Source: a virus. Taken from it: DNA of 21,553 nucleotides. A program made the translations under genes and the position numbers. The notes below the pieces were generated by a model, which worked only from the letters and a program-made list of their open reading frames with translations, ran no database searches and was not told the DNA's origin. Where the stretch lies: the IMG/VR virus record IMGVR_UViG_3300044837_000035, positions 1 to 21,553 of that record. One strand, written 5' to 3'. This document shows positions 2,754 through 20,432 of the stretch, piece by piece. The stretch's first letter is position 1. Each line of letters opens with the position of its first letter.

Positions 2754-3433
2754 TACGGCGTCATCCCTCCCCTCACCCGCATGACCGGATTGGCGGAGGC
2801 CGTGATGCGCTGCGTGCGGGCATTCAGGCCAGCCACGGAGGCGTTATAGAGCGCCAGGTAGGCCTGCGCAGACGCCGCATCCTGGGTCATAATCGTTGCC
2901 TCAACCAGGCAGCCGTAGAGGTATACATCCGAGTAGTTCGTCAGGATGGCATTTGAGGCTGCAGCCGTGGGCGTCGTGAGCTTCTGGTAGTAATGCATTA
3001 CCAGCGTCAGACCGGCAGTTGCCGCGTCCTTAATTCGAAAGTTCGTGCCGCTCACTGCAATCAGCTTCGTTCCACCAACGGCCTGCGTCCCATATCCGTC
3101 GATCACGCGCTGCGCTACGATCTCCACCGGCTTGTTGATCGTCGAGCTATAGACCGAGATCAGTTCAAGAAAGTCGCTCGGCTGTGCGAGCGTAGAGTCT
3201 CCGGCCGCAACACCAGCGGTTTGTACCGTAAGCTCCATCTCGGGAATGCGTAGCGGATCGGACCTGAGAGGATTGGTCGGATCGTCAACCGCATAGCCGT
3301 AGTACATCCGGCGTTCCATGTTCGCCAGGAAGTTGTCGAACAGAGGATCGAGGATGGGGTCGCTCGATCCGCGCGCCATCCATGTCGGAACCGCCGATTT
3401 GAGGCCGGTGTAGGTGTTAAAGGTGACGCTCAC
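2753..3433 (-). CDS. Head-tail adaptor protein (tubular tail A / gp4-like family)
   Basis: This 226-residue protein opens with GTG at 3433, overlapping the upstream stop as GTGA. Its pattern fits podovirus adaptor proteins that form a ring below the portal: an N-terminal helical section (LDPLFDNFLANMERRMYYGY, residues about 28-47), a central section with PSDFLELISVYSSTINKP typical of these proteins (the 'LPxDFLELxxL' motif), a beta part with NFRIKD, and a C-terminal helical bundle with HYYQKLT and NWL-like TNYSDVYLYGCLVEATIM. Alanine-rich helices close the protein. It lies between the capsid gene cluster and the tail gene, the usual place for an adaptor. The family-level assignment rests on pattern recognition; the nearest named relatives are adaptor proteins of SU10-like and P22-like phages. 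Confidence 0.82.
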   Translation of the reverse strand: MSVTFNTYTGLKSAVPTWMARGSSDPILDPLFDNFLANMERRMYYGYAVDDPTNPLRSDPLRIPEMELTVQTAGVAAGDSTLAQPSDFLELISVYSSTINKPVEIVAQRVIDGYGTQAVGGTKLIAVSGTNFRIKDAATAGLTLVMHYYQKLTTPTAAASNAILTNYSDVYLYGCLVEATIMTQDAASAQAYLALYNASVAGLNARTQRITASANPVMRVRGGMTP

Positions 3434-3645
3434 GGCCGTGCCTTAAAGACAAAATGGCCGGAGTCTTCCGGATCTGGCGTCAGCTCGGCATGCGTGAAAC
3501 CTTGCGCCATTGCGCGATGGGCATGGCGATCAATCCACTCCTTGATGACCGCTTCCTTCTTGTCATCGGTCACGTTGTCGAGCCCCCACACTTCGGAGAC
3601 CTCAACGCCGTCAACCACGGTCTGCTGATACTTGAACGCGCTCAC
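3430..3645 (-). CDS. Small conserved protein of the connector region
   Basis: This protein of 71 residues starts at GTG 3645 (GTGA overlap with the previous stop) and ends in a GTGA overlap with the adaptor start. It has a beta-like N terminus (KYQQTVVDGVEVSEVWGLDN), a charged helix (DDKKEAVIKEWIDRHAHRAMAQG) and a beta-like end (HFVFKARP). No enzyme motif or membrane segment is visible. Function unknown. Expression is likely because it is coupled on both sides and both non-ATG starts are fixed by overlaps. Genes of this size between capsid and adaptor are often minor virion or assembly factors. Confidence 0.7.
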   Translation of the reverse strand: MSAFKYQQTVVDGVEVSEVWGLDNVTDDKKEAVIKEWIDRHAHRAMAQGFTHAELTPDPEDSGHFVFKARP

Positions 3646-3965
3646 TTAGACACCCGCAGCTTGTACCATTCGCTGTCGTTCAGGATGTTCTTCTCGATCC
3701 ACTTCTGCTGGTCTTCGTCGTTCATCCGGTAGATGTCGATGCCGTACTGTTTGCGCCAGATTGAGGCCATGATGACGGGGATCTGGTGCGTCATCTGCAC
3801 CTCCTTGTCCTGCGCAACGCCGCTCTCGCGCAGGTGATGGTTCATGCGCAAGATTTCATCCGTGTTCTGCGCCACTTCCTGCGCCCACGTTCCGTCCGCG
3901 TGCTCGTGCCACCAATAGGCCGGGCTATTTGGGTCGCCGTCCCAATCGATAAAGCGTCCGCTCAT
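3642..3965 (-). CDS. Conserved phage protein of the capsid-connector region, unknown function
   Basis: This is a 107-residue protein. I chose ATG 3965 because it overlaps the upstream TGA as ATGA; an in-frame GTG lies three codons earlier. The sequence shows an acidic and aromatic N terminus (FIDWDGDPNSPAYWWHEH), then a helix with NTDEILRMNHHLRESG, a second section MTHQIPVIMASIWRKQYGID and a C-terminal segment with KNILNDSEWYKLRVS. The combination 'MxxIAxIPxxVxxxWxxxYGxD ... LNDxxWxxLRTS' is a recurring phage protein family encoded close to the major capsid gene in podoviruses; its role is not established as far as I know. It is soluble and probably cytosolic or virion-associated. Confidence 0.75.
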   Translation of the reverse strand: MSGRFIDWDGDPNSPAYWWHEHADGTWAQEVAQNTDEILRMNHHLRESGVAQDKEVQMTHQIPVIMASIWRKQYGIDIYRMNDEDQQKWIEKNILNDSEWYKLRVSK

Positions 3966-4180
3966 CTCTTCCACCTGCTAGCGCAGCGGTTACACTCACG
4001 CGTGCCAATTGAAGGCGGCGGCAGTGGGCACTCGCACGACATGCAGCGCAGCCCTGCCATCTTCTCCTGAAAGGCGCGTTGTTCCGCCACCAGCGCTTCC
4101 TCTCCAGCCATCTCGCAAATCTCATCCATGCGAGCGTCGGAGAGCGGCTTGCGTGGCGCGTCGGTGTGCCAGTCTCTCAC
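3962..4180 (-). CDS. Small zinc-ribbon protein
   Basis: This protein has 72 residues. The start is GTG 4180, overlapping the stop of the upstream 48-residue gene as GTGA; the stop overlaps the next ATG as ATGA. An N-terminal helical half with acidic residues (RMDEICEMAGEEALVAEQ) is followed by a cysteine cluster CMSCECPLPPP and ECNRCASRW at residues about 46-70, giving CxxCxC ... CxxC, the arrangement of a small zinc ribbon. The C terminus is basic (RWKR). From the family pattern it may bind zinc and contact nucleic acid or another virion protein; target unknown. Non-ATG start and position are supported only by the overlaps. Confidence 0.7.
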   Translation of the reverse strand: MRDWHTDAPRKPLSDARMDEICEMAGEEALVAEQRAFQEKMAGLRCMSCECPLPPPSIGTRECNRCASRWKR

Positions 4181-4323
4181 TTCGCCTTCGACGGATTGCT
4201 GCCCTTGTATGTCGAGTAGGCAGGCGACCCGTTGGCCGTGGCCGAGCTTCTGCCCGCCTTGACGGTGCTGCGGCTAACAGTGTGTGGCTTGCTCTGCTTG
4301 GCAGAGTCGAATGTCTTCGCCAT
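4177..4323 (-). CDS. Tiny basic protein, paralogue of its upstream neighbour
   Basis: The gene runs from ATG 4323 to TGA at 4177-4179 and encodes 48 residues. A clear ribosome-binding site (AAGGAG, 7 nt spacer) precedes the start. The protein is Ser-, Lys- and Thr-rich, with almost no hydrophobic core: MAKTFDSAKQSKPHTVSR opens it. It resembles the neighbouring 53-residue protein at the N terminus (MAKxxx(Y/F)DSxKQxxPxT), so the two look like products of a tandem duplication. Such short basic, probably disordered proteins next to the capsid gene may coat or cement the shell or bind DNA; that is inference. No catalytic motif is visible. Confidence 0.75.
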   Translation of the reverse strand: MAKTFDSAKQSKPHTVSRSTVKAGRSSATANGSPAYSTYKGSNPSKAK

Positions 4324-4334
4324 TTGAATGCTCC

Positions 4335-4496
4335 TTACTTCTTGCCGGTGAAGAAAATGGGCTTGTCGGCCGTGCTTGATGTCTCGACCCAGCCAGCCGG
4401 CTTCTTGTTCTGGCCGGTATTGGCCGTCTTGCCGCCCTTCATCGTGGTGTTGGGCATGCCCTGCTTGACGCTGTCGTAGCTTGAGTTCTTCGCCAT
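4335..4496 (-). CDS. Tiny basic protein following the major capsid gene
   Basis: A 53-residue gene with ATG at 4496 and TAA at 4335-4337. The ribosome-binding site is strong (AAGGAG with a 6-nt spacer). The protein is rich in Lys, Gly, Thr and Asn (MAKNSSYDSVKQGMPNTT, then KGGKTANTGQNKK) and ends in FFTGKK. It lies directly downstream of the capsid gene, after a 54-nt spacer with a hairpin, and shares its N-terminal pattern with the following 48-residue protein. A high basic charge and low complexity suggest a disordered protein that could decorate or stabilise the capsid, or act in DNA packaging. I do not recognise a named family. Confidence 0.75.
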   Translation of the reverse strand: MAKNSSYDSVKQGMPNTTMKGGKTANTGQNKKPAGWVETSSTADKPIFFTGKK

Positions 4497-4516
4497 CTCG
4501 CTCTCCTTGCGAAAGT

Positions 4517-4540
4517 GGGAAGGGCGTTGAGCGCCCTCCC
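4517..4540 (-). terminator. Hairpin just after the capsid gene, possible attenuator or mRNA stabiliser
   Basis: Eleven nucleotides after the capsid stop codon is an inverted repeat: arms GGGAGGGCG and CGCCCTTCCC on the minus strand, with one bulged T and a 5-nt loop. No U-tract follows; the next bases are ACTTTCGC. It is therefore a weak terminator at best. A hairpin after a capsid gene may instead block 3' exonucleases and raise capsid mRNA, which is inference. Confidence 0.45.
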
Positions 4541-4550
4541 GAGTTCAGAC

Positions 4551-5489
4551 CTACGACAGATCAGCCAGGATGCCGCTGCCCGCCTCGTTCTTGCACTGCA
4601 GCGTCACCTCGCCAACGATCTGGAACGCGCGAGCGTCACCGACCTTGGCAAGCTCTTCCTTCTTCCACTTGTCGAGCCACAGGAGGCCCCACAGCGAAGG
4701 ATCGATGACGCCGATCATGCTGGTGCGCACGAAGCGCGACATCGCGGCGTTGAAGATGCCGAAGTCAGAACGGAACCGATCGATGGTGCCGGTCAGGGTC
4801 GTGGGCTTGCCCGCGTCCGTGAAGAGCGTCGCAACGCCCACGAACGTCGAGAAGTTCATCTTCTGGTTGGATGACATCAGCAGCCAGTTCGGCTTGCCAC
4901 CATTGTCCCATGCAGACTTCAGGACCGTCTTGAGCAGCGCCAGTGTGGCAGCACGCGCGATGCCGTCGACCGGCGCCACGGTGTTGCCCGCCGTGAAGCC
5001 ACCGGACGCGCCGGTAGTGCCACGCGAGACGTTGCTGGTCAGCCACGACTCGAACCCGCCGAGCTTGCGGGGATCGTTGCCCGTGCTCGCCTGGTTCTGC
5101 GAGATGAACGCCTCGAGATCCATCTTGATGCGCCGGCCAGCCAGTGTGGTCTGGTAGCTGATTTCCGAGTCGCGGCCAGCCTTGCGGATGGACTGCTCGG
5201 TGCGCGAGATCGTGAACGGCTTGTTCAGGATCTGCAGGCGATTGCCGACACGAACGGTCGGGACAAGCACCTGCGCAACCGCCGTATTGCCTTCCGGCTG
5301 GAAGTTGGTGGCGTTCGCAGCGCCAAGGGTGTCGAGCTGCCATTCCTCGAAGGTGGCCGCAGCGTCGCCGCTGTCGATCATCGACTGGAAGGGCGTATCG
5401 TCCTTGTTGAGAATCGTGATGATGTCGTGGAGCGACTCACGATTGCCGACAGAGCTTGACGTTAGAAAGGTATTCGTCGGGGCGGCCAT
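4551..5489 (-). CDS. Major capsid protein, SU10/DUF5309-like
   Basis: This 312-residue protein builds the icosahedral shell. It matches the SU10-like/DUF5309 capsid pattern (HK97 fold): an N-terminal NRESLHDIITILNKDDTPF (residues about 17-35; the 'REDLxDxIxxIxPxDTPF' motif), a basic-edged segment (RVGNRLQILNKPFTISRT), a helix with KAGRDSEISYQ and RRIKMDLEAFISQNQAS (about 120-137), and the C-terminal shell part with WLLMSSNQKMNFSTF, an FGIFNAAMSRF segment and DPSLWGLLWLDKWKKEEL. A strong ribosome-binding site (AGGAGG, 7-nt spacer) precedes ATG 5489, consistent with high expression. It follows the scaffold gene and precedes small basic genes and the adaptor. Length is in the usual range. The capsid assignment is firm; the subfamily is by pattern memory. 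Confidence 0.92.
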   Translation of the reverse strand: MAAPTNTFLTSSSVGNRESLHDIITILNKDDTPFQSMIDSGDAAATFEEWQLDTLGAANATNFQPEGNTAVAQVLVPTVRVGNRLQILNKPFTISRTEQSIRKAGRDSEISYQTTLAGRRIKMDLEAFISQNQASTGNDPRKLGGFESWLTSNVSRGTTGASGGFTAGNTVAPVDGIARAATLALLKTVLKSAWDNGGKPNWLLMSSNQKMNFSTFVGVATLFTDAGKPTTLTGTIDRFRSDFGIFNAAMSRFVRTSMIGVIDPSLWGLLWLDKWKKEELAKVGDARAFQIVGEVTLQCKNEAGSGILADLS

Positions 5490-5507
5490 AACCGCGCCTC
5501 CTGTGCG

Positions 5508-6590
5508 TTAGAGTCCTCGTAGGCGGATCAGCTCCATGGCTGCTTTCGTGTCATATCCGCCGCTTTTATTGAGCCGTTCGCTTGCTTGCCGAATTGCCTC
5601 GCCGTTCCGGTTGCCTCGCTGTTGAGCGGGTCCGGGCTCGATGCGCTTCGGTGCTGCGTTGCCGGGATTATTCCCCGTCCCAGATGAGGTGACGGCAGAA
5701 GCTCTCTTTTGGGCCTGCTCGAATCGCATAGCGTTGAGCGCCATTTCGATGATCGGGGCCTCATGAATGGTGTTGATGCGCTCGGCCGGGATACCCTTGC
5801 TGAAGAGGAACTTGCCGAGATCCTCATAGGTCTTGGCCGACTTCTCAGGGGTGCCGAAGTAGTCGGGCAGCTTCTTGGCTACCTTGGCATGCTCGGCCAC
5901 CTTGAACTCATCGAGCTGCTGCTTTTGCCGCTGCTGCGTGACCTTCTGGGCTTCCTGCGCCTGGTTGGCGGCCTGAGTGAGCATCGTATGCTCATCGGCG
6001 CGCATCTGGCTCAACCGCGCCCATTCGGCGGGATTGTCGGCCGCGAGCTTGTTGAAATCGACGCCGGCCCAGCGGTTGACGAAGGTCTGTTCGAACTTCT
6101 GCGCGTTCTGCTGCCACCACGCGGCATATTGCTCGCTGGTACTGCCGAGCTTCTGGACTTCCTCCATGGCCTTTCGGCGCTCGGCGGCGGCTTCCTCTGC
6201 CTTCCGGTTGGCGAACTCGATGCGCTGCTCTTCGTACTTCTTGAGGACAGGCCTTAGCTCGGGCGGGACTTGCTTCCACCACGCCTTGTCTTCAGCGCTC
6301 CAGAAATCGGGCGCGTCCTCGCCTTCGCCGGCCGCAGCCTCTCTCTCATCCACGCGTTCGTTGCCAGCATCATCGCCCTCATCGCCTCGTTCACCTGACT
6401 CGGCATCAGGATCGACGACGGTGTTGCCTTCGGGCTGCGCATTGCCGGGGTCCTCCTCCCTCTCGGGTCGTTCACGCGGCGGCGGAGCGTCGTTCGGGCT
6501 TTCGTTCAGGCTATCCAGGCGTGCAGCCGCCTCCGATTCGGAGATGCCTGCGCCGGTCGGCCACTGTGGGGGTGAATTGTCGTCAGCCAT
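5508..6590 (-). CDS. Scaffolding protein
   Basis: This 360-residue protein is immediately upstream of the capsid gene. Residues 1-95 are highly acidic and disordered-looking (Glu, Asp, Pro and Gly), then a conserved FWSAEDKAWWKQVPPELRPV motif (about residues 96-115), a coiled-coil-rich helical middle (EEQRIEFANRKAEEAAAERR and AANQAQEAQKVTQQRQKQQ), a conserved short part (DYFGTPEKSAKTYEDLGKFL) and a Gly/Asn-rich C-terminal tail ending in MELIRLRGL. Acidic, helical proteins placed between portal and capsid genes are the usual scaffolds, which organise procapsid assembly and leave the shell before packaging. The start at 6590 directly follows the upstream TAA, with AAGGA seven bases before it. 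I see no protease domain, so any proteolytic maturation would need another protein. Confidence 0.85.
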   Translation of the reverse strand: MADDNSPPQWPTGAGISESEAAARLDSLNESPNDAPPPRERPEREEDPGNAQPEGNTVVDPDAESGERGDEGDDAGNERVDEREAAAGEGEDAPDFWSAEDKAWWKQVPPELRPVLKKYEEQRIEFANRKAEEAAAERRKAMEEVQKLGSTSEQYAAWWQQNAQKFEQTFVNRWAGVDFNKLAADNPAEWARLSQMRADEHTMLTQAANQAQEAQKVTQQRQKQQLDEFKVAEHAKVAKKLPDYFGTPEKSAKTYEDLGKFLFSKGIPAERINTIHEAPIIEMALNAMRFEQAQKRASAVTSSGTGNNPGNAAPKRIEPGPAQQRGNRNGEAIRQASERLNKSGGYDTKAAMELIRLRGL

Positions 6591-7657: not shown

Positions 7658-8452
7658 CTACCCGATGAACCAGCCGGTGCCGTCGCAGTAGACTGGCACC
7701 TTGTTTGCGCCACCGCCGACGACAGCAGCGCCGATGCCGGCCGTCATGGTCTGCGTTGCATCCGTGACGAAGGCACGCGCGCCTCCCGCCGTTGCTGCGG
7801 CCGGCAAGTTGCTCACCGTTGTGGGGATGGTGGCCACCGTCGAAGCGGTAATTGGCGCGTCGGCGCTGTCATCAGCAAGACGGATGTTGACCGCCGTGCC
7901 ATTGCGTTTAATCGCCGGAAAGCTGGCAGTCGTTCCGCCCAATTGGAATTTGTTGAAATTCGTTCCGGCATTATTAAACCAGGTAAATATACCATCGCTT
8001 GGTGCCGAAAAACCGCCTCGAGTATTTGAAAGAACGTTAAATCCATCGCCGAATATCAGATTGCGTCCAGAGACAATGCTGCTACTCGACGGAGTGATAA
8101 AGCCGCCAGAGGCGGTCACATTGCCACTCGTACTGATGCTAAAAAGACTAGTGGTGCCGCTCGCGCCGCCAAGCAGATTGAAGAGGTTAGAGCCCCCGCC
8201 ATGCGCCGTGTCGGTGATCGCTATCTTGATGACATCGACCACGCCGCTCGTGTTGAGCGTGCCGGCCCAGCTCTCCATGGGCTGAGCGTTCGAGCCCGTG
8301 AGAGAATAGCCGGTCCCTACGAGCGACGAGGTGTTGGCAGTTCCTGGCACGGTGAGAGGGGCGGCAATCGTGTGGTCAGCATTCCACACATTCGCGCCCA
8401 CGTCCGACCCGTCGTCCGCGATCGCCGTCTGATGGGTATGCGTGACACTCAT
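7658..8452 (-). CDS. Fibre-like virion protein
   Basis: This is a 264-residue protein, start ATG 8452 in an ATGA overlap with the portal stop, with GGAG about 9 nt upstream. The N-terminal 30 residues (GSDVGANVWNADHTI) are typical of phage fibre proteins, the middle is Ser-, Thr-, Gly- and Asn-rich and beta-helix-like (TSGNVTASGGFITPSSSSIV), and the C terminus carries a classic fibre tail: NLPAAATAGGARAFVTDA, GGGANKVPVYCDG and TGWFIG. This end module is seen in many tail and head fibres, where it caps a trimeric stalk. Unlike the distal fibre gene at the left edge, it sits between portal and scaffold, so it may be a head fibre or short collar fibre. Receptor is not visible. Confidence 0.78.
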   Translation of the reverse strand: MSVTHTHQTAIADDGSDVGANVWNADHTIAAPLTVPGTANTSSLVGTGYSLTGSNAQPMESWAGTLNTSGVVDVIKIAITDTAHGGGSNLFNLLGGASGTTSLFSISTSGNVTASGGFITPSSSSIVSGRNLIFGDGFNVLSNTRGGFSAPSDGIFTWFNNAGTNFNKFQLGGTTASFPAIKRNGTAVNIRLADDSADAPITASTVATIPTTVSNLPAAATAGGARAFVTDATQTMTAGIGAAVVGGGANKVPVYCDGTGWFIG

Positions 8453-11019
8453 TTGGCGTGGCTCCTGGCCACTTTGCGAGCCCTATAGGTCTTGCCGCTG
8501 GGCCCCGTGATTTCGGACTCGGCCATGTGCGCATCGGCAAGCTTCTGAACCGCCTGGGCCATCTCCTGAATGGCACTCGTATGGGCCTTCGCGAGGTCCG
8601 CATGGCCCGCTGCGGCATGCTGATGAGCGGCGGCAAGCTGATTGATGGCATCGGTCTGGGCGGCCAGATGCTTGCCAGCGGCCTCGCTGTGCTGATTGAA
8701 CGTGCTGCCCAGCGTCTCGATGGGATCAGGGCCGTCCCCCTCGTCCTTGGCCTTGGCGAGATGTTTCTCGTGCTTCTGATTTGCGGCGAGAGTATGCAGT
8801 TGCAACTGGCGATCTTGCTCCTTGTGATAGGAGTCGGTCTCGATCTGCTTGTTCTTCAGTTCAAGCTCGCGAGCTTTCAGCTCAAGTTCCTGTTGTTTCA
8901 TCATGGCGTCGTGGGCCTGCTTGGCCTGGTCCGCTTTGCCTTTATTCTCGGCAGCGACAGCATCAGCGAACGCCTTCTGATGGTCCGCCTGCGCCTTCAT
9001 GGCATCGGCATGCGCCTTCGCGCCGGCGATCTGCGTGTCGTTCTGGCTCTTGGTGGCTTCAGCCTGCGCCTTCACGCTCTCCGCTTGTGCGCGCTGGCTT
9101 TCGGCTTGGAACTTCGCCATTGCGGCCTGCTGTTCAGGCGTCGGCAGTGGCGGGTTTTCGGCCATGTGCTGGACCTGCGCCACGACCTTCTCGGGCGGTT
9201 GGAAGAACATGCCCGGCGTTTTGTAGCCGATCGTCTCGGACGTCTTATGGACTAGGTTGGCGACATTCTCGGCTGTCACATACGGGCCGTTGGCCTGTCC
9301 CTGCTGCAGCACGATCAGCTTTTCCTGCGCCGCCGCGATCATCGCCAAGCCCTGCAGCGCCTGATCGCGCGTGCCGGCGCCGACATTCACCGTCAGCTCC
9401 AGATCGTCCGGCCATTTCGTCGGATCGACCGTGCCCATCGATTGGCCGTTCCAATACTGGATCGGACCCTTGGCAGCGCGCTTGATGGCGCGATAGACTA
9501 GGCGATAGAGCCGCTTGATCGCAGTTTCCGCCAGCGTCCGGGCGATCAGCTCGATTCGCTGTTGCGCGGCCCCCATCATCATATTCATGCCGCTGGCGGT
9601 CTTGTTCAGGCTGTCGGCGTCGAGGCCTTGGTTGTTCCTGATGACGCCCGTGCGGTTCTCGCGGACGGTTTGGAAGTACTCCAACGCCGACTGCGCGTTC
9701 TGCAGCACCGAGGGCACCTGCAGAAATGACACATGACTGTCGGCCGCCTTGGCGTTGGCTTTCAGCCTGATAGGTGAGCCAGGCGTCCAGTCGAGGAGGC
9801 TATCGAGGTTGACTTGGTCATCGACAATCGGGCGCGGCGTATTCACCGCGTACAGATTATTCAGCAAGCCGCGCGTGAGCACGGAGCCGATCTCCTGCAG
9901 GTCCTTCACCTGATCGAAGAGCGATCGCCCAATGATGGTATGGCTCATCAGGATGGGCGTCGCGAGCGCGATGGAGGCCGGCCCCTCCCATTCCTTCACC
10001 TCGATCAAGCCCGTGGTATCACCCCGCGAGTGGGCATAGACCACACGGTACATCTTCGACTTGCCGTCGTCCTTCGGCGCCCAGCGCGCATAGGCCACGA
10101 TCACCCACAGGGTGCGCTCGCTGTCGCTGGTCTCGTTGCGCACGGGTTCGCTGACGATGCCAGCCGCGTTGCGCTGCGTCTCCTCCGGGGAGATCGGGCG
10201 ATCGGACTTGAGAAGCTCTACGTCCTCCCACTCCATGCCGAGCTCCACCAGCTCGGACGCCGAGACCTTCTTGCGGAAGCCGAGATAGCTGGCCTTGTCC
10301 TGATCGCGGGCAGTGGGCGTGAAGAGGATATCTTCGGACGCGATATTGTCAGCAATGACCAGCTTTCGCTTCTGCGTCGCCGTGATGGTGCCGGAGAAGG
10401 TCGCGGGCGGTTCCTCCTGCGGGACAGGCTGCCCAGATTGCGGATCAATCTGCAGCGGCGCTGGCGGCGGCGGAGGGTCGGGAGTCAGATCCTCAACAAG
10501 TTCGGCGCCCACCAGATCGGCCCGCTTTACCAGCACGTCGATGGCATCCTGCGGCAGGCCATTGATCGGGAAGTCCTTGGTCTCCTCGATCTCCTCAACG
10601 TCAACCGTTGCACCGCTCAGGCGGTACATCAGGGCGTCCTTGATGAACCAATAGAGGATGCGATAGCCGTCGTTTTTGACCATCAGGACATGCGGGACGT
10701 ACTCATCAGCCTCCTCTACCGCTTGCTCCTGGCCCGGCCCGGTGGGCGAGAACTCGACGCTGGATTCACTGCCGGCAAACACCCGCATCATCGATGGCAT
10801 GATGCTTTCGATGGTGTCGGCAAACTCCGAGGTCACGACCCTTGACGAGCCTTCCTGCTCGTCGCCGTAGGGCTCGCGGTCGTAGTAATCGAGCGAGTCC
10901 GACCGATGTCCCATCAACTCCGAATCTTGGAAGTTGGACGCAGCCATTTCCTCCTTGCGGAGGATCTTGAGTAGGTCTTCCTTCTGCTTGTCGGACAGGT
11001 TGTCGGTGAGGTCAGCCAT
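8449..11019 (-). CDS. Portal protein with very long C-terminal coiled coil
   Basis: This 856-residue protein is the largest in the window and forms the ring through which DNA enters and leaves the head. An N-terminal acidic helical segment with DYYDREPYGDEQEGSS (about 44-59) and RVVTSEFADTIESIMPSMMR (60-79) is followed by a Pro-rich loop (about 180-205), the core with FRKKVSASELVELG, and a conserved region GLDADSLNKTASGMNMMM (465-482) then AAQQRIELIARTLAETAIKRL, a hallmark of podovirus portals. Residues about 625-835 form an extraordinary Ala/Gln/Lys/Glu/His coiled coil (KAQAEATKSQND, ADAMKAQADHQKAF, KQQELELKARELELKNKQIE), longer than the barrel of most portals. The C terminus is GKTYRARKVARSH. 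The start follows GGGGG with a short spacer and overlaps the upstream stop by 8 nt. The gene encodes the portal with high confidence; the coil may be a long DNA-channel barrel. Confidence 0.9.
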   Translation of the reverse strand: MADLTDNLSDKQKEDLLKILRKEEMAASNFQDSELMGHRSDSLDYYDREPYGDEQEGSSRVVTSEFADTIESIMPSMMRVFAGSESSVEFSPTGPGQEQAVEEADEYVPHVLMVKNDGYRILYWFIKDALMYRLSGATVDVEEIEETKDFPINGLPQDAIDVLVKRADLVGAELVEDLTPDPPPPPAPLQIDPQSGQPVPQEEPPATFSGTITATQKRKLVIADNIASEDILFTPTARDQDKASYLGFRKKVSASELVELGMEWEDVELLKSDRPISPEETQRNAAGIVSEPVRNETSDSERTLWVIVAYARWAPKDDGKSKMYRVVYAHSRGDTTGLIEVKEWEGPASIALATPILMSHTIIGRSLFDQVKDLQEIGSVLTRGLLNNLYAVNTPRPIVDDQVNLDSLLDWTPGSPIRLKANAKAADSHVSFLQVPSVLQNAQSALEYFQTVRENRTGVIRNNQGLDADSLNKTASGMNMMMGAAQQRIELIARTLAETAIKRLYRLVYRAIKRAAKGPIQYWNGQSMGTVDPTKWPDDLELTVNVGAGTRDQALQGLAMIAAAQEKLIVLQQGQANGPYVTAENVANLVHKTSETIGYKTPGMFFQPPEKVVAQVQHMAENPPLPTPEQQAAMAKFQAESQRAQAESVKAQAEATKSQNDTQIAGAKAHADAMKAQADHQKAFADAVAAENKGKADQAKQAHDAMMKQQELELKARELELKNKQIETDSYHKEQDRQLQLHTLAANQKHEKHLAKAKDEGDGPDPIETLGSTFNQHSEAAGKHLAAQTDAINQLAAAHQHAAAGHADLAKAHTSAIQEMAQAVQKLADAHMAESEITGPSGKTYRARKVARSHAK

Positions 11020-11203
11020 TGGGCACCCCCATGACTTGCTCAGGCCACGGAGTGACGATTACCTGCATTCCAGCCTCAAGGCATAGGCGCACACCCTTCA
11101 GCACATCTTCTATCGTCTTATGCGAACTGACCGACGCGTTTCGCGTGTAGTAGTCGAAGTGTTGGTGGTACATAGAACCACGCACGACATACTGCTCAGC
11201 CAT
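11012..11203 (-). CDS. Small protein upstream of the portal
   Basis: A 63-residue protein running from ATG 11203 to a stop that overlaps the portal start by 8 nt. The sequence (MAEQYVVRGSMYHQHFDYY, then a helix TIEDVLKGVRLCLEAGMQ and a strand VIVTPWPEQV) looks like one small alpha/beta domain with several His and Tyr residues. No known family. Its start region repeats the exact 12-bp TCAGCCATTGGG (plus strand) that also covers the portal start, so the two starts may come from a small duplication. Function unknown. Confidence 0.7.
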   Translation of the reverse strand: MAEQYVVRGSMYHQHFDYYTRNASVSSHKTIEDVLKGVRLCLEAGMQVIVTPWPEQVMGVPNG

Positions 11204-11384
11204 TGGGACGCCAGACCTCGGGCAGGTACTTGGTGCCCTTCTCGACCTCGCGCGTGGGCTTCGTCATCAGCGGCAGGCAGACGATGGGGCGATTAATGGG
11301 GCGAAGGCACCGGCCCACGCACGACGTCAAGCAGTGGCATTCAGGCCCTTCGCGAGTGATGCGGAACGGATTGTAAGAGATCAC
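11196..11384 (-). CDS. Small cysteine-rich protein
   Basis: The gene starts with GTG 11384, which overlaps the preceding stop (GTGA) and has GGGGA seven bases before it. It encodes 62 residues; the longer frame upstream runs through the preceding gene and is a shadow. Cysteines are clustered: CHCLTSCVGRC near residues 17-27, plus one Cys at about 36. CxC ... CxxxC arrangements can bind zinc or an iron-sulfur cluster. The rest is basic with Pro and Arg (RPINRPIVCLPLMTKPTREV). Its ATG-containing end overlaps the next gene by 8 nt. No family recognised. Confidence 0.6.
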   Translation of the reverse strand: MISYNPFRITREGPECHCLTSCVGRCLRPINRPIVCLPLMTKPTREVEKGTKYLPEVWRPNG

Positions 11385-11593
11385 GGCTCCATCCCCACCT
11401 TGTCGTCCAAGAGCTGGTCGACGATGCCGAGGTCGGACGCGGTCATGGGCTCGCGAACATGGAAGCGGCCCTTTACGTACTGAAGGGCTCGTGCAGTCTG
11501 GTTTAGTTGGTTCTGCGCCTGCTCCTGAGCCCAACTGGGCAGCCCAACTGCGCTACTGCTCATGCTCTGGTCGCTGGGGATTCCGAAGATCAT
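11381..11593 (-). CDS. Small protein between the glycosyltransferase-like gene and the cysteine-rich gene
   Basis: This 70-residue protein begins at ATG 11593, overlapping the preceding stop as ATGA, and ends in a GTGA overlap. It has a Ser/Gln-rich first half (SDQSMSSSAVGLPSWAQ, then EQAQNQLNQTARALQYVKGR) and a more ordered second half (REPMTASDLGIVDQLLDDKV). It may form a helical hairpin. No motif, membrane segment or signal peptide is visible and I do not recognise a family. It is kept because it is tied to neighbours on both sides. Confidence 0.68.
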   Translation of the reverse strand: MIFGIPSDQSMSSSAVGLPSWAQEQAQNQLNQTARALQYVKGRFHVREPMTASDLGIVDQLLDDKVGMEP

Positions 11594-12828
11594 CGCATCA
11601 CCTCGGGCAGCGCCGCAGCGCGGGCAAAGCGTGAACTGTATTTCTGCCTCATCCAGGCAAGCCCAACGCTGTCCTGCGTCGCGTTCAGCCCCTCTACGAT
11701 CTGGCCAAACTGGCGCTTGATCTCCTCGTCCGTCAGGAAACTCGCCTTCGGCTTGATCGGCACCAGCGACGGCCGGCTGAAGTACGGCATGTATTCGCCC
11801 GTGAACGAGCTCGATCCCCAGAAATTCATGGCGAAGTCTTTGAAGGCCACATAGGGGCGATTGGCCGGCTTCTCGGCGTCGCTGAACTCGATGAACGTCA
11901 TCTCGTCTTCAACGGTCGGCACGTAGAAATCGCCCGGCACATACTCAGGCAGGAGCGTGTCCATCGTGGAGGTGAAGGCGATCGGCGAGTCGAGGCACAG
12001 GCCGGGCGATAGCCAAGCGGCATTCACATGGCTGGAATAGACGTGGACCGCGTCCTTGCCCTGCCACCACAGGCGATGGCTGCACGGCAGCTTGTCGGGC
12101 CACTTCGCCGCGTTCATCGAGTGCAACTGGCATTGCGGGTGCATATGCCGGTAAGCCATGTCGCCCAAGTCGCGATCGGGGATGGCCAGCGCGCCCGACT
12201 CGGTGCGGTATTTCTCAATCTCAGGCCCAACGCCATCGAGCGTGGCATTCAGGCTCATCTGCGTGACGGCGTCGTGCTCTTTGCCCAGCCGCAGCAGGTT
12301 CTCGAAGTAACGCACGCCGTATAGGTGATCGGGCTGCAGCATGTGGAAGCCCATGCCGGCCCTGCCCGCCATGTGCGTGAGCACGTTCCCAACCACGCCC
12401 AGCGTCCGGAAGCGTGAGCTGTAATCGCCCCGAGCCAGCATCCCCATCACGTCATCGGGAATAGGGCGGAAGATCACCTCGATACCACCGCGGCGCACCC
12501 AAGCGGTGAGCCTGTGCAGGTAGGGCTTGGCATCGCGCTCGTGGTAGATCACCAGCCGGCATCGGTCCTTCAAGGCGGCCAAATTGGCCGGCGCCATCAG
12601 CGTTGGGATGGTGTAGGCGGCAAAGCGGTCGATGTAGTCCATGCCCCAGACAGGGCAGCCCATCAGGACGCCGTCGCCCTTCGCGCCGGGATGGCCGTAC
12701 AAGTCCTCGTGCTCGGCATCAAACCAAGGCTGCATCAGCCCAGGGATGTCGCCATAGAGGTCGTGCGCATCGATGGCGTTATCCAACGTGTTCGGATTTA
12801 CTTGCCGGGTGACGCGTCTGGGAGGCAT
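11590..12828 (-). CDS. Glycosyltransferase-like protein
   Basis: This protein has 412 residues, starting at ATG 12828 in a TGATG overlap with the small upstream gene (an in-frame GTG lies one codon before). The early segment MGCPVWGMDYIDRFAAYTIP (56-75) then TLMAPANLAALKDRCRLVIY (76-95) is the pattern of bacterial proteins with a Rossmann-like sugar-nucleotide-binding domain ('GxxxWGxxYIDxFxxYxLPSLLAPxNLPAL'). Around 160-181, HMLQPDHLYGVRYFENLL resembles the 'PDHVYSDG'-type donor/metal-binding loop of such enzymes. The rest is aromatic- and His-rich, typical of glycan-acting proteins. The likely role is transfer of a sugar to a polysaccharide or protein, acceptor unknown. It is two genes downstream of a TylF-type O-methyltransferase, so the pair may make a methylated glycan. 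Assignment is by motif memory and moderate only. Confidence 0.5.
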   Translation of the reverse strand: MPPRRVTRQVNPNTLDNAIDAHDLYGDIPGLMQPWFDAEHEDLYGHPGAKGDGVLMGCPVWGMDYIDRFAAYTIPTLMAPANLAALKDRCRLVIYHERDAKPYLHRLTAWVRRGGIEVIFRPIPDDVMGMLARGDYSSRFRTLGVVGNVLTHMAGRAGMGFHMLQPDHLYGVRYFENLLRLGKEHDAVTQMSLNATLDGVGPEIEKYRTESGALAIPDRDLGDMAYRHMHPQCQLHSMNAAKWPDKLPCSHRLWWQGKDAVHVYSSHVNAAWLSPGLCLDSPIAFTSTMDTLLPEYVPGDFYVPTVEDEMTFIEFSDAEKPANRPYVAFKDFAMNFWGSSSFTGEYMPYFSRPSLVPIKPKASFLTDEEIKRQFGQIVEGLNATQDSVGLAWMRQKYSSRFARAAALPEVMR

Positions 12829-12989
12829 CACGCGGCATCCTTGGCGAGGTCGTCCGCGACCTGAAGGCAGAACTGCACATGCTTTAGGATGGCCGCGCGT
12901 TTCTCTTCGTCATATCGGGAGAGATTGAATGCAATATATCTGGCCAGCGAGACCATCTCCGGAGTGAATGCGCCATTCCAATCGGCCAT
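12828..12989 (-). CDS. Very small helical protein
   Basis: The gene encodes 53 residues from ATG 12989, which follows a strong ribosome-binding site (GGGAGG, 7-nt spacer) and overlaps the upstream stop as TGATG; its TGA overlaps the next ATG (12828) the same way. The protein (MADWNGAFTPEMVSLARYIA, then FNLSRYDEEKRAAILKHVQF) is one long amphipathic helix or helix pair with no motif I recognise. The tight fit between the methyltransferase and glycosyltransferase-like genes suggests that it may help one of them, as inference. Confidence 0.65.
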   Translation of the reverse strand: MADWNGAFTPEMVSLARYIAFNLSRYDEEKRAAILKHVQFCLQVADDLAKDAA

Positions 12990-13702
12990 CACGCGGCCTC
13001 CCTATCGATCACGTGCGGAGCTTCCTTGATCATCCATGCGCCGTGGCTGCCGGGCGCAGAGCGGATCTTCCAAGGCAGCGCCTTCTTGGTCAGATAGGCG
13101 TGCGTGGCCAGCCTGCAGCCTTCCCAGGCGTCGTAGTCGTCGATGATGATGGGAGCGCCGACCGAGCAGAGCGGTTCAAGCTCGCGATAGACGCACATGC
13201 AGGGGTCGTACCAGTCGCAATCAACACGCAGGACGGCGATAGCTTCGGGCTTATGCTTGGGCAGCGTGTCGGCCAGCCAGCCCGGAATGACGATGACGTG
13301 GTCCTTGAGGTCCAACGTTCGGATGTTCTCGCGGACTTGGATGTGATCAGCGGTAACGAAGTTGGTCCCGTCCGGGTCAGCCTCACCATCGGCCGTCATC
13401 TTCTGCGCGCGCTCCATCCACCAGCGAGCGTGGTAGCCATCCTCCGGACTGGGCGGCGACATGCCCTGGAACGAGTCGTACATCCACACAGGACGCTGGA
13501 TCGCGCCGTACTGGTAGCGCTGGGCCAGAAGCATGGCGAAGCTGCAGCCGCCCATCCATGTCCCGCACTCCACGAGGTCGCCGGGAATGCCCGCATTGAT
13601 GGCCTCCAGCGTCAGCTCAATCGTGGTCGCCAAGCCGTCATCGGGCACCATGGTATAGGGCCGCACTTCCGCGATGACTTGGGGGATCAGGTCGAAGGCC
13701 AT
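12989..13702 (-). CDS. TylF/MycF-like S-adenosylmethionine-dependent O-methyltransferase
   Basis: This 237-residue enzyme matches the TylF/MycF (macrocin O-methyltransferase) family, which methylates sugar hydroxyls in glycosylated metabolites and polysaccharides. The SAM-binding motif GDLVECGTWMGGCS (41-54) follows an N-terminal helix (GLATTIELTLEAINAGIPGD) typical of the family. Further motifs are YDSFQGM (75-81), VLRVDCDWYD (157-166) and IIIDDYDAWEGCR (185-197), the last two supplying the divalent-metal and catalytic acidic residues. Length is usual for the family. The ATG 13702 overlaps the upstream TGA as TGATG. It sits between terminase and portal genes, an unusual place, two genes before a glycosyltransferase-like protein. 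Substrate is not identifiable from sequence: a virion glycan, a host surface sugar or a small molecule are all possible. Confidence 0.85.
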   Translation of the reverse strand: MAFDLIPQVIAEVRPYTMVPDDGLATTIELTLEAINAGIPGDLVECGTWMGGCSFAMLLAQRYQYGAIQRPVWMYDSFQGMSPPSPEDGYHARWWMERAQKMTADGEADPDGTNFVTADHIQVRENIRTLDLKDHVIVIPGWLADTLPKHKPEAIAVLRVDCDWYDPCMCVYRELEPLCSVGAPIIIDDYDAWEGCRLATHAYLTKKALPWKIRSAPGSHGAWMIKEAPHVIDREAA

Positions 13703-13884
13703 CAGCCTGCTGCCCCCAACCAGAAGGCGTATGGCGCATCATTCTTACTTTCGTCCGACGTGCGCGCGAAACGATCTTGCGAATCGCGGAAACTTACGCA
13801 GCTTGCGCATTGGCAATCATAAGGCGCGAACACGATGCCACCTTCCATTTCGTAGCCGCGATCGGTGATTCGATACCGCATCAT
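13702..13884 (-). CDS. Small cysteine-motif protein following the terminase
   Basis: A 60-residue protein starting at ATG 13884, overlapping the terminase TGA (ATGA), and ending as TGATG with the methyltransferase start. It holds a DCQCASC motif at residues about 23-29, with basic and acidic residues around it (RYRITDRGYEMEGGIVF before; FRDSQDRFARTSDESKND after). CxCxxC can bind metal or form disulfides. No known family. Homologues sometimes sit just after phage terminase genes. Confidence 0.65.
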   Translation of the reverse strand: MMRYRITDRGYEMEGGIVFAPYDCQCASCVSFRDSQDRFARTSDESKNDAPYAFWLGAAG

Positions 13885-15371
13885 CGGAACCCCCGCCTGA
13901 GGTTCGCCAGCTTCTCCTCGAAGCGCTTGTTCTCGATCGCCGTCACGCCCTTCACGGCCACTGGATAGGCAAACGTCAGCGCCAGCGCGTCACCATCGTC
14001 AGGGCTCGCCAGGCCTCGGGTGCGCATGTCTTCCTTTTTCTCAAGCAGGATGGCGTTCTGTGCGTCGTAGCCGTATTCCAGGCCCGTCAGGTCAGCGGCG
14101 AGGTCACGGTCATCAGGCAGGCAGCCGGTCTTGCACCACGCCTTCATCCGGCCCCACATGCCGGCGCGCATGTTGGCGTAGAGCGAGTCGTCTCCGGGTG
14201 TGCGGTCAACTTTCTCCGCGAAATTGACTGCCACGACCATGTCGTAGCCAAGCTGGCGGAGTCGGTCGTACACACCAGAACCCAGACCCGTCGCATCGAC
14301 GAACACCGCCGCGGGCTTGTATGTGTCGATCTGCTCGGCAATGCGGCTGGCTACCTGCATCAGGTCGGGGATGCGCATCTTGACCGAAGGGATCGAGCGC
14401 GCGTCCAAGCCCTTGCGGAAGCGGATGACGCTGGGATCGCCCGAGAGCGAGCGCCCGATGTCCACGCCCATGGTCAGCGGGGCATCGTCGTCCTTGATCA
14501 GCTCGCGCTTTTGGGCGTCTTCGACCCGTTCGCTATCGATGAACTGTTGGTCGCCAGCACGGGGAAATACTCCTCGGACTCGCACACGAACGAAGTCGGA
14601 GTCGTCCCCATAATCTGCCACCCATGTCGCAATCTGTTGCTTGTTCGTGAACGATACCGAACGACTGTCAATCTGCCGGTTGTCCCAGCGGTGCGCAAAG
14701 CGTCCGCCCGCGAAGCATTCTTTGAATCGACCATTGTTCCTCGTGGGGTTGCCGAACACGCACCAGAACAGCTCGGTGTTCGCATCAGTCAGCGCACCCT
14801 CGACCGTCTCCCAGATCAGGTCCGGAATGGCCGAGGCCTCATCGAATATCGCGAACGCCCTGCGACCCTTGTTGTGGAGGCCAGCAATGGCCTCTGCGTT
14901 GTCTTCGGACCACGTGACGGCATCCACACGCCAAGTCTTATCGCGGTCCCGCTGGGCCGAATAAATGGCCGTAGCAGTGAAGGTAAACCAGTGGCTGTTA
15001 ACGGCCATACGATGCCATTTGGCAAGCTCAGGCCACGTCTTGACGCGAAGCTGCTCGCCAGTGTTCGCCGTCACCACACCGCGCGTGTCGGGCATCGTGG
15101 ACATGGCCCACAGGATGATCCACGCCACCAAGGCCGACTTGCCGATTCCGTGTCCGGAGGCCACAGCCAAGCGAAGCGCCTCGCTGGTGTCTATAAGGCC
15201 TCTGCCAATGCGGTCGAGGATGTCGCGTTGCCAGGCCTCCGGACCTTTTTCGCCAGCGAGCGACGTGCCGGGCTTTCCCCAGGGGAAGCAGGCCAGCACA
15301 AAGCCCAGCGGATCGCGCGTGTACCTGGCGATCTGTTCTGCAAGGGGATCGGGGCTAGTGTCGAACGGCAT
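13881..15371 (-). CDS. terL: Terminase large subunit
   Basis: The 496-residue motor packages DNA into the head: an N-terminal ATPase plus a C-terminal RNase H-like nuclease. Visible parts are Walker A AVASGHGIGKSA (69-80), Walker B FAIFDEAS (173-180), and nuclease acidic residues in GVDIGRSLSGDPS (302-314; Asp304), FVDATGLGSGVYD (357-369; Asp359) and SPDDGDALALT (456-466). The segment EAWQRDILDRIGRG (45-58) resembles the adenine-contact region. I preferred ATG 15371 over a GTG 30 bases upstream because the family N terminus starts shortly before the ATPase, and the overlap with the small-subunit gene stays at 17 nt; neither has a convincing ribosome-binding site. All key residues are present, so it should be active. 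Gene order with the small subunit upstream is standard. Confidence 0.93.
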   Translation of the reverse strand: MPFDTSPDPLAEQIARYTRDPLGFVLACFPWGKPGTSLAGEKGPEAWQRDILDRIGRGLIDTSEALRLAVASGHGIGKSALVAWIILWAMSTMPDTRGVVTANTGEQLRVKTWPELAKWHRMAVNSHWFTFTATAIYSAQRDRDKTWRVDAVTWSEDNAEAIAGLHNKGRRAFAIFDEASAIPDLIWETVEGALTDANTELFWCVFGNPTRNNGRFKECFAGGRFAHRWDNRQIDSRSVSFTNKQQIATWVADYGDDSDFVRVRVRGVFPRAGDQQFIDSERVEDAQKRELIKDDDAPLTMGVDIGRSLSGDPSVIRFRKGLDARSIPSVKMRIPDLMQVASRIAEQIDTYKPAAVFVDATGLGSGVYDRLRQLGYDMVVAVNFAEKVDRTPGDDSLYANMRAGMWGRMKAWCKTGCLPDDRDLAADLTGLEYGYDAQNAILLEKKEDMRTRGLASPDDGDALALTFAYPVAVKGVTAIENKRFEEKLANLRRGFR

Positions 15372-15648
15372 CTTCGACCCGCATCGACTGCTCGCGCTCA
15401 CGCATCTCGGTGATCACGCGGTCCAGCGTCATCGCCACGTCAAGGTGGCCGCTATGCTCGATGGGCTGCGAAGCCTTGCCAAAGCCACGGTCGAGCAATT
15501 CGCGGGCAGCGGCTACGCGCACCGAATGCGTCTCGCCCTCGTGCATAATCTGGGCAAGCACACTCACCGCCTCCGGACCATACGGAGCGGCAAGGACCTT
15601 GATGTCTTTGCTGGATTTGTTCCGAGAACCTTTAGGGCGGCCAGCCAA
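15355..15648 (-). CDS. terS: Terminase small subunit (probable)
   Basis: This protein of 97 residues is immediately upstream of the large terminase. The N terminus MAGRPKGSRNKSSKDIK is a basic, Gly/Arg/Lys-rich arm of the type common in small terminase proteins (the 'GRPKGSxNK' motif), followed by LAAPYGPEAVSVLAQIM and a helical SVRVAAARELLDRGFGK that resembles the DNA-recognition part. The start codon is TTG 15648 with GGGA 9-10 bases upstream. The small subunit binds packaging sites (pac or cos) and stimulates the motor. Size is short for some families, but the position and arm make the call likely. Confidence 0.78.
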   Translation of the reverse strand: MAGRPKGSRNKSSKDIKVLAAPYGPEAVSVLAQIMHEGETHSVRVAAARELLDRGFGKASQPIEHSGHLDVAMTLDRVITEMREREQSMRVEDAVRH

Positions 15649-17049: not shown

Positions 17050-17526
17050 TCATTTCTGATGATCCTTCCGCCATTCCCATGCCGGCATGCAGGCGTAGCG
17101 ATGGATGCCAAGCCCCTCAGCCTTCGCCTGGTTCTCTTGGGGTACGTAGTCGAGACTGTACCTGCGGAACGCCCACGCCATGCCCTGGCGCACCATTTCG
17201 GCCTGTATGTCGATGCCGTCTGCCGTGCATTTGCCGATCGTGCGGCTGTAGCGGTCGTGGCCTTCGGGAATGCAGGTCACGCGACGATCGCGCAGGAGGG
17301 CTCGCATGTAGGCTGTGGCTTCAACGCCGGCAGGCCAACCGCCGCAGGATTGGTGCATCTCGGGGGCGTCGATTCCGCGAAGTCGCCAGGTTGTGCCGTT
17401 GAGCTTGATCGTGTCGCCGTCGACCACGGTTTGGGCGCGAGTGACTGCGGAAAGCAGGAGGCCGATGACGATCGCCAGCACGAGAACGCTCCAAATCTTA
17501 CACTGCAGCTTCGTTGTACCGCTCAT
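17050..17526 (-). CDS. Exported staphylococcal nuclease-like enzyme (SNase family)
   Basis: This 158-residue protein is a thermonuclease (SNc) homologue. Residues about 11-31 (IWSVLVLAIVIGLLLSAVTR) are a signal peptide or N-terminal anchor. The SNase core follows: VVDGDTIKLNG (34-44), WRLRGIDAPEMHQ (47-59) with Arg50, Asp53 and Glu56 at the positions of the catalytic Arg35, metal Asp40 and general-base Glu43, and DRYSRTIGKC (91-100) with Arg95 for catalytic Arg87. AEMVRQGMAWAF (109-120) matches the later core. It would cut DNA or RNA outside the cytoplasm, in the periplasm or at the surface. The ATG 17526 overlaps the upstream TGA as ATGA, which excludes the longer frame upstream. An exported nuclease encoded before the packaging genes could degrade competing DNA or recycle nucleotides; that is inference. 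Confidence 0.82.
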   Translation of the reverse strand: MSGTTKLQCKIWSVLVLAIVIGLLLSAVTRAQTVVDGDTIKLNGTTWRLRGIDAPEMHQSCGGWPAGVEATAYMRALLRDRRVTCIPEGHDRYSRTIGKCTADGIDIQAEMVRQGMAWAFRRYSLDYVPQENQAKAEGLGIHRYACMPAWEWRKDHQK

Positions 17527-17651
17527 CGGCGCGGCCAGAAAAATACTGCGAGGCCAATCAACGCGCCCACAGCCATGGCGCCCAGCACCAAGTAGCCAAA
17601 TCCGGGAATCGGCTCGTAGCAACGAGTGGCGTAACAAGTCATCGCAATCAT
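17523..17651 (-). CDS. 42-residue membrane mini-protein
   Basis: ATG 17651 follows AGGAGAAGG 7-10 bases before it; the gene ends at TGA 17523-17525, overlapping the nuclease start. The protein (MIAMTCYATRCYEPIPGFGY, then LVLGAMAVGALIGLAVFF, then WPRR) has one predicted transmembrane helix at about residues 20-38 and a basic end, so the C terminus is probably cytoplasmic. Two N-terminal cysteines may be in the periplasm. It could be a holin-like, export-assisting or immunity-type protein for the nuclease. Not recognised as a known family. Confidence 0.6.
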   Translation of the reverse strand: MIAMTCYATRCYEPIPGFGYLVLGAMAVGALIGLAVFFWPRR

Positions 17652-19346: not shown

Positions 19347-19795
19347 CAGCGTCCCTCCCGCGAGGGGGAAACGGTGGCGTGGAGCTCCACCTTGCAGAAG
19401 CGAAGCGCCTTCTCGACCTCTTCAACCGAGCGGCAGAGGATGTACCAAGCAGCGCAATCCTTGAATTTTTGTTCCATGGCTCGCTGCTCAGGAGATTGCC
19501 TGCCAACTTTTGTCTTAAGCTCAAGACCAACCAACACCATTCCAGTCGGAAAGCGCGCCATCACCAGAATATCCGGCCACCCCGGATGCATGCCCATGGC
19601 CTTTAGCTGCCCGCCACGCGCCTTTCCCCCGCCGCCGTGGCCGATGGTCGTCCAAATCGTCGGAGGCCTCAGGGCGAGCCGCAGATAGTCAGCAACGGCC
19701 TTGTGAAGCTGCTGCTCTGGTTGGGCGCGTTTCTTGTTGCGCCAATACCGCTTCAAGCCTTCGCTGGTGGCGATCTGGTTGGGACTGCGGCTCAT
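19346..19795 (-). CDS. VRR-NUC domain nuclease
   Basis: This 149-residue protein carries the VRR-NUC fold of the PD-(D/E)XK superfamily. Motifs are PEQQLHKAVADYLRL (26-40), GHGGGG and GHPGWPD-type HPGWPDILV (70-78; Asp75), LELKTKVGRQSPEQ (91-104; Glu92, Lys94) and the final helix RAMEQKFKDCAAWYIL. The catalytic D ... ExK set is complete. VRR-NUC proteins in phages act as structure-specific nucleases, probably on recombination or replication intermediates. It overlaps the upstream methyltransferase gene by ATGA and the initiator by TGATG, which ties it to replication. Substrate specificity is unknown. Confidence 0.88.
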   Translation of the reverse strand: MSRSPNQIATSEGLKRYWRNKKRAQPEQQLHKAVADYLRLALRPPTIWTTIGHGGGGKARGGQLKAMGMHPGWPDILVMARFPTGMVLVGLELKTKVGRQSPEQRAMEQKFKDCAAWYILCRSVEEVEKALRFCKVELHATVSPSREGR

Positions 19796-20280
19796 GCGGC
19801 GATCCTCGGCGATTTCATCAGCATGCCGAGGCGCCGCTGCGAGGCGATCGCCAAGGCGGCATCTGCCTTAGAGCCGATGCCCATCAATGCAGTGCCGACG
19901 CTTGGTGATCGCCCCACAGTTTGGTCAGGACGCTCGAACTTCACCTTCGGCAGGAACATCAGTGACGAAGACAGCGGCGCGTACTGCTGAAACCACGGCG
20001 CACTCGTACGGTCTGGTGTGAGCGCGATGCCGTTGCCATGCCGAAAGAACTTCGCCAACCAAGGCGCTAGGGCATTGCGACCGCCAAATGGCGGATTCAT
20101 CCAGACGAAGCCGCGCCATTCAGCTTTGAGGCCGTCGTGCCGTTCGTAATAAAGGGCTGGGACGTGGCACCCTCCCGGAGAGGCAGCAACGTCCATATCA
20201 AAGCGGCAGCCGAGCGCGTCGAAGATATACTTGGGCGTGTACCATTCGTTGCTTTTCCCGAGGGCTTCCCAGTGGCTCAT
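19792..20280 (-). CDS. Phage Dam-type DNA N6-adenine methyltransferase
   Basis: This 162-residue protein belongs to the phage DNA N-6-adenine-methyltransferase family. Motifs are SNEWYTPKYIFDALG (10-24), a target or SAM region FDMDVAASPGG (27-37), and the catalytic WMNPPFGGRN (60-69), a variant of D/N-PP-Y/F that flips and methylates adenine. LFRPDQTVG-like residues around 117-123 resemble family motifs. It is short, as usual for this phage family. ATG 20280 overlaps the preceding stop as ATGA, so the 14 residues upstream in frame are excluded. Methylation may protect phage DNA from host restriction or mark origin DNA; no cognate restriction gene lies nearby, so it is probably a solitary enzyme. 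Recognition sequence cannot be read. Confidence 0.9.
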   Translation of the reverse strand: MSHWEALGKSNEWYTPKYIFDALGCRFDMDVAASPGGCHVPALYYERHDGLKAEWRGFVWMNPPFGGRNALAPWLAKFFRHGNGIALTPDRTSAPWFQQYAPLSSSLMFLPKVKFERPDQTVGRSPSVGTALMGIGSKADAALAIASQRRLGMLMKSPRIAA

Positions 20281-20432
20281 GCGAGCGCCAGGCACTTGGT
20301 GGTCAAGTCCCGCAGCCTGCACAGCCAGACATAGCTCCGGGTTTTCTTGTAGGCCGCTTCTGCTCTTGCGCGTTGCTTCTCTACGCGGGTGAGGGCTTGG
20401 CGGCGGCGTCTGTCTTTCTCTCGGATGGTCAT
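20277..20432 (-). CDS. Small basic helical protein
   Basis: A 51-residue protein from ATG 20432 to a stop overlapping the methyltransferase start (ATGA). It is strongly basic and helical (MTIREKDRRRRQALTRVEKQ, then RARAEAAYKKTRSYVWLCRL) with a short hydrophobic end. I find no clear ribosome-binding site, so its expression rests on the downstream coupling. It may bind nucleic acid; function unknown. Confidence 0.55.
   Translation of the reverse strand: MTIREKDRRRRQALTRVEKQRARAEAAYKKTRSYVWLCRLRDLTTKCLALA

Follow-up and report, generated by a model that had tools for sequence, protein, structure and literature searches.

Members of the TylF/NovP/MycF family of sugar O-methyltransferases (PF05711) are known to methylate the sugars of antibiotics. 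Among phages, mycobacteriophage Che8 carries a related combination, in which gp108 unites a GT2-like domain and a TylF domain in a single protein, and the genes next to it encode two further predicted glycosyltransferases (GTs). Che8 capsids are reported to be glycosylated (PMC11256854), and Mycobacterium phages to bear glycans on capsid and tail tube (PMC12619734). The literature searched yielded no recognized report on TylF/macrocin methyltransferases in phages, on GTs between terminase and portal, or on O-methylation together with a glycosylated capsid. PMC6256464 was considered as a precedent for a GT gene between terminase and portal and set aside, as its GT gene lies downstream of the lysis cassette.

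The window, that is, the whole stretch of DNA analyzed here, is a virus record of 21,553 bases with all genes on the minus strand. Between the genes for the terminase large subunit (TerL) and the portal, it encodes a TylF-type methyltransferase and a 412-aa protein, named GT412 in this work. Like gp108–gp110 of Che8, the locus is phage-encoded and combines a putative GT with a TylF-type methyltransferase, the two being fused in gp108. The two also differ: Pfam assigns the Che8 GTs to GT2 or GT25 and GT412 to no family; the Che8 genes occupy the right end of their genome rather than the interval between terminase and portal; and sequence similarity is found in TylF only, with no link detected between GT412 and the Che8 GTs. 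Che8 is a working analogue of the pair. It is proposed here, with even weight for and against, that the pair consists of a soluble GT and a sugar O-methyltransferase that would be expressed late and make an O-methylated glycan, probably on a virion protein.

Genes between terminase and portal

The gap between TerL and portal measures 2,861 bp, in agreement with the intervening 2.9 kb or so reported in a preliminary description of this DNA. That description had also placed the TylF, 53-aa, and 412-aa genes in this interval and joined them by 1-nt overlaps, and the coordinates bear out both points (Table 1), the overlap being TGATG at each of the junctions 13702, 12989, and 12828. Neighboring genes are packed in the same manner, with a 4-nt ATGA overlap at the junctions of GT412 with the 70-aa gene and of TerL with the 60-aa gene, and GTGA at the junction of the 70-aa and 62-aa genes. 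Given that small ORFs (60, 70, 62, and 63 aa) with overlapping stops and starts fill the interval, the genes presumably form one transcriptional string. In searches of Pfam, PHROG, and NCBIfam, the 60-aa and 63-aa proteins have no family match, the 70-aa protein none above chance, and the 53-aa protein, which also lacks a transmembrane stretch, none that is convincing; for the 62-aa ORF, the search of Pfam gave no match. The two larger genes are not chance ORFs, since TylF matches PF05711 and has relatives 53–67% identical, and GT412 has phage relatives 33–45% identical.

Table 1. Positions of the terminase, portal, and capsid genes of the window and of the genes between terminase and portal
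Feature	Position	Strand	Evidence or gene boundary	Use
Terminase large subunit TerL	13881-15401	-	phrog_5902 2.5e-69, phrog_2 1.9e-44	context
60-aa protein between TerL and TylF	13702-13884	-	overlaps at both ends, same gene string
TylF-family SAM-dependent O-methyltransferase, 237 aa	12989-13702	-	PF05711 4.3e-34
53-aa protein between TylF and GT412	12828-12989	-	ATG start; 54 aa if begun at an upstream GTG
GT412, predicted GT-A-fold glycosyltransferase, 412 aa	11590-12828	-	ATG start; GTG makes 413 aa
70-aa protein downstream of GT412	11381-11593	-	ATGA overlap, same gene string
62-aa ORF with GTG start, linking the 70-aa and 63-aa genes	11196-11384	-	GTGA overlap
63-aa protein immediately upstream of portal	11012-11203	-	ORF
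SU10-like portal protein	8449-11019	-	PF23899 1.1e-157	context
SU10-like major capsid protein, candidate acceptor	4551-5489	-	PF17236 1.7e-75	context

The window contains SU10-like portal, adaptor, and major capsid genes, and such a portal and head are consistent with a podovirus. Elsewhere in the window are genes for a staphylococcal-nuclease homologue (17050–17595, PF00565), upstream of the terminase genes, and for a Dam-type DNA adenine methyltransferase (19792–20322, PF05869). In the tail-gene region, a 564-aa protein (625–2319) matches the FCCH domain of the ubiquitin-activating enzyme (PF16190, 3.9e-13), which probably reflects a domain of the tail and not a link to ubiquitin.

The methyltransferase and the predicted glycosyltransferase

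The TylF protein scores 118.4 bits against PF05711, for which the curated cut-off is 23, and aligns with NovP (2wk1), an O-methyltransferase of known structure, at 3e-23. Its S-adenosylmethionine (SAM) motif reads LVECGTWMGG, and D161, D188, and D189, which we take to be metal ligands, align to Asp residues of NovP. The SAM motif and the three Asp residues are invariant in all six aligned phage sequences, including the distant one of L019. The protein is therefore, as first described, a TylF-type O-methyltransferase with intact SAM and metal motifs, sharing with TylF, NovP, and MycF the profile, the SAM motif, and the three Asp at metal positions and differing from them in being a phage gene within a head operon. 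It probably methylates sugars, and it has no transmembrane stretch. Pairwise dN/dS values range from 0.25 to 0.56 for all 10 TylF pairs and from 0.14 to 0.59 for the five GT412 pairs listed, both by simple NG86 and with dS near saturation for distant pairs.

GT412 has no significant match in Pfam, PHROG, or NCBIfam, nor in PDB by sequence. Weak hits to families such as SKICH, Cellulase, Phe4hydrox, and arginyltransferase were regarded as chance; the PDB sequence matches were only antibody chains with E of 0.1 or worse, and a profile search of PDB found none. The first relative came from a weak plasmid match (E 7e-4, 26.6% over 190 residues), and two Solidesulfovibrio proteins were found that align, through their C-terminal domains, with most of the length of GT412. 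With their alignment as query, relatives of GT412 were recovered from viral contigs, and two further rounds added more, the phage relatives being 33–45% identical to GT412 over nearly its full length. Alignments were needed for this, as scans of viral contigs with the single sequences of GT412, TylF, and portal found no relatives. Among isolated phages, the GT412 query has no match at E up to 10 in 50,697 records, the copy of L022 none at E up to 1, and that of L015 only chance-level ones (E 3–7). In genome contigs, the query made from the plasmid pair gave 17 candidates, three of which are relatives; none of the 37 candidates found with the phage GT412 alignment proved to be a true one.

The preliminary description had called the 412-aa protein glycosyltransferase-like and named fold prediction as the check. 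An AlphaFold (AF2) model built from a 14-sequence alignment (pLDDT 87.5, pTM 0.85) has the GT-A fold according to both Foldseek and VIA-align. Foldseek finds 123 matches in PDB at E of at most 0.001, the best 50 of which are GTs, sugar nucleotidylyltransferases, and related sugar-nucleotide enzymes, along with one row for eIF2B, a translation factor. In VIA-align, the best Z is 12.3 (rmsd 6.9, 232 residues) and that for SpsA is 11.2 (rmsd 3.5, 197 residues), and the 50 matches listed are GT entries by title, including AvpGT, K4CP, WrtF, TarS, RmlT, SpsA, and LH3. The best structural match is A0A6J5PWU5 of BFVD, from an uncultured Caudovirales phage (TM 0.66/0.78, E 8.4e-19), an uncharacterized protein only 16% identical to GT412.

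Likeness to established GT-A enzymes such as TarP, TarS, RmlT, K4CP, and SpsA lies in the fold of the model, whereas identity to them is 7–15%, the GT2 profile PF00535 matches none of the 14 GT412 members, and a canonical DXD motif does not appear to be conserved. This Asp-x-Asp metal motif is common but not universal among GT-A fold enzymes. Judging from secondary structure, its place in GT412 would be taken by D167 alone, presumably following the strand that bears DXD in GT-A enzymes; by the same reasoning, T-x-D290 appears to open the helix in which many GT-A enzymes have the catalytic base. In the 20 domains compared (14 phage and six cellular), W61, G62, T288, and D290 are kept throughout and D167 in 19, with Glu in the other. 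No transmembrane stretch is present. GT412 is very likely a glycosyltransferase.

Recurrence in phages and in glycan-synthesis loci

In total, 16 virus records, the window included, were examined, all of them fragments or of unknown completeness, so that absences from them carry little weight. GT412 is present in 14. In 10 of these (the window, L007, L008, L009, L012, L015, L020, L021, L022, and L027), its gene stands between those for TerL and portal, although the contig of L008 stops after the first 33 matched residues of the portal; in L015, L022, and L027, it overlaps the portal start. It follows TerL in L010 and L011, within whose available stretch no portal occurs, and is 2–3 kb upstream of TerL in L013 and L014. 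The terminases of these records belong to differing PHROG groups (phrog_5902/2, phrog_38, phrog_3717, and phrog_2472/2) and the portals to two (phrog_1216 and phrog_12082). In L007 (585–3752) and L008 (3413–6777), near-identical GT412 and 85-aa genes stand behind terminases of phrog_38 and phrog_3717, respectively, a pattern suggestive of a terminase exchange that left the downstream genes in place. Together, the varied terminases and portals and the comparison of L007 with L008 indicate that the position of GT412 outlives exchange of its neighbors. Thus, GT412 regularly occupies the slot between terminase and portal, and it is the methyltransferase that varies; the term "inserted" in the preliminary description suits the methyltransferase more than it does GT412.

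TylF genes occur in eight of the 16 records, six with at least 53% identity to that of the window (the window counted, five being other phage records) and two distant (31% and 35%). GT412 accompanies all six close TylF genes and neither of the distant ones. These co-occurrences are not all independent, since G010 and G017 are closely related (their 117-residue TerL tails are 97% identical); as to how the records entered the set, the window, G007, and G008 did so via GT412, and G009, G010, and G017 first via methyltransferase scans. The two genes are near each other in the window, L013, L022, and L027. L022 and L027 are related phages, in which TerL is followed by an O-methyltransferase (PF01596), TylF, two GT412 copies, and the portal, giving each two O-methyltransferases and two GT412 copies in the interval. 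In L027, TylF and the first GT412 are separated by a 149-aa ORF that looks HNH-like on visual inspection. TylF is apart from GT412 in L014 (~9 kb), where it comes directly after the major capsid gene, and in L015 (~2 kb). GT412 does not need TylF, as eight of its 14 records, five of them shorter than 8 kb, show no such gene. In the tree, the window groups with methyltransferase-free records (99/97), and the split of the labels is weak (57/0), so gain of TylF in the window lineage and loss in its kin look alike.

From this linkage, it is likely that TylF and GT412 act on one glycan. The earlier proposal that three genes build a methylated glycan is supported in part, for these two; the 53-aa protein has neither a recognizable role nor a tie to sugars. 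One of the records with a distant TylF and no GT412, L028 (45–10753), has genes for QueC, a QueD-like PTPS, SurE, DUF5591, and a class-III aminotransferase, which suggests a 7-deazaguanine-modifying phage.

Cellular relatives of GT412 reside, in all four loci examined (L006, L023, L024, and L025), among glycan-synthesis genes, with NAD-sugar epimerases/dehydratases, methyltransferases, a GT2, ABC transporter genes, or sulfotransferase-like genes as neighbors. L006 additionally contains pseB, pseC, and a protein of PF01973, a family that includes the Maf flagellin glycosyltransferases. The plasmid proteins C3Y92_RS20735 and C3Y92_RS21230 of Solidesulfovibrio carbinolicus have a C-terminal domain homologous to GT412 and differ from it by an N-terminal extension with TPR-like repeats and by their pseB/pseC glycan locus. 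In L024, a Phycisphaera protein (3131–5557) carries a tandem pair of GT412-like domains, and in one of them Glu replaces the conserved Asp.

The probable acceptor of the proposed glycan

The pair would constitute a glycan-modification module, expressed together with head and packaging genes and hence presumably late. GT412, being soluble, would take a nucleotide sugar from the host and transfer the sugar to an acceptor in the cytoplasm, which is most likely a virion protein at the time of assembly; TylF would then methylate a hydroxyl of the transferred sugar. The resulting particle would carry an O-methylated glycan, altering its surface and with it adsorption, stability, or recognition. A virion protein is favored over envelope or DNA because of the linkage to portal and capsid genes, the solubility of both enzymes, and the lack of GtrA and GT2 proteins in nine records and of PF00303 proteins in eight, all fragments or of unknown completeness, and we judge that the virion is the target with about equal readiness to be wrong.

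Were the methylated sugar placed on lipopolysaccharide, capsule, or a lipid-linked precursor instead, the phage could block superinfection or change the receptor. O-methylation is common on surface polysaccharides, and the cellular relatives sit in glycan clusters, that of L024 with ABC-type export genes and GT2. This host-envelope modification is nevertheless unlikely. Late expression is suggested by gene position and by the overlaps with portal, and a change of the envelope is less useful at that stage; a tyrosine integrase is found in only one of eight records. Unlike Gtr serotype-conversion cassettes, which have a GtrA flippase and the GT2 enzyme GtrB, none of nine records, possibly fragments, contains GtrA (PF04138) or a GtrB-type GT2 (PF00535). 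Neither GT412 nor TylF has a transmembrane stretch, yet a soluble GT could act on a precursor. Modification of DNA, in which the GT would glycosylate a modified base and the methyltransferase cap it to protect packaged DNA, is highly improbable. The genes do adjoin terminase, and phage GTs that hypermodify DNA are known, as cited in PMC12619734. However, the glycan clusters of the cellular relatives speak against a DNA acceptor, and the thymidylate-synthase-like hydroxymethylase of DNA-glucosylation systems has no PF00303 relative in any of eight records, which are fragments or of unknown completeness.

It is also conceivable that the gap between terminase and portal is an insertion hot spot and that the two enzymes do not cooperate. 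In L010, a DNA methylase gene (3103–4584, PF01555) directly follows GT412; the interval therefore accepts other cargo, as it does in L004, and position alone is not proof of a virion target. The frequent occurrence of GT412 without TylF and the separation of the two in L014 and L015 fit such unrelated cargo as well. Against it stand the presence of GT412 with every close TylF, the proximity of the two genes in four records, and the existence of a GT–TylF fusion in Che8, which together make this explanation quite unlikely.

If virion glycosylation is taken further, it is possible, albeit tentatively, that an unnamed phage GT family, residing in the terminase–portal operon of several lineages, glycosylates the assembling head or portal protein and builds an O-methylated particle glycan together with TylF, joined in some phages by another O-methyltransferase and more GT copies. 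Virion glycosylation would then reach beyond mycobacteriophages to podovirus-like phages whose heads are of the SU10 type. If true, the particles of SU10-like and other-headed phages bear self-made sugar coats coupled to head assembly, and the GT family responsible is one absent from the copies of Pfam, PHROG, and NCBIfam searched. The spread of virion glycosylation beyond mycobacteriophages and the role of O-methylation would then become testable, and a set of unannotated phage genes could be named.
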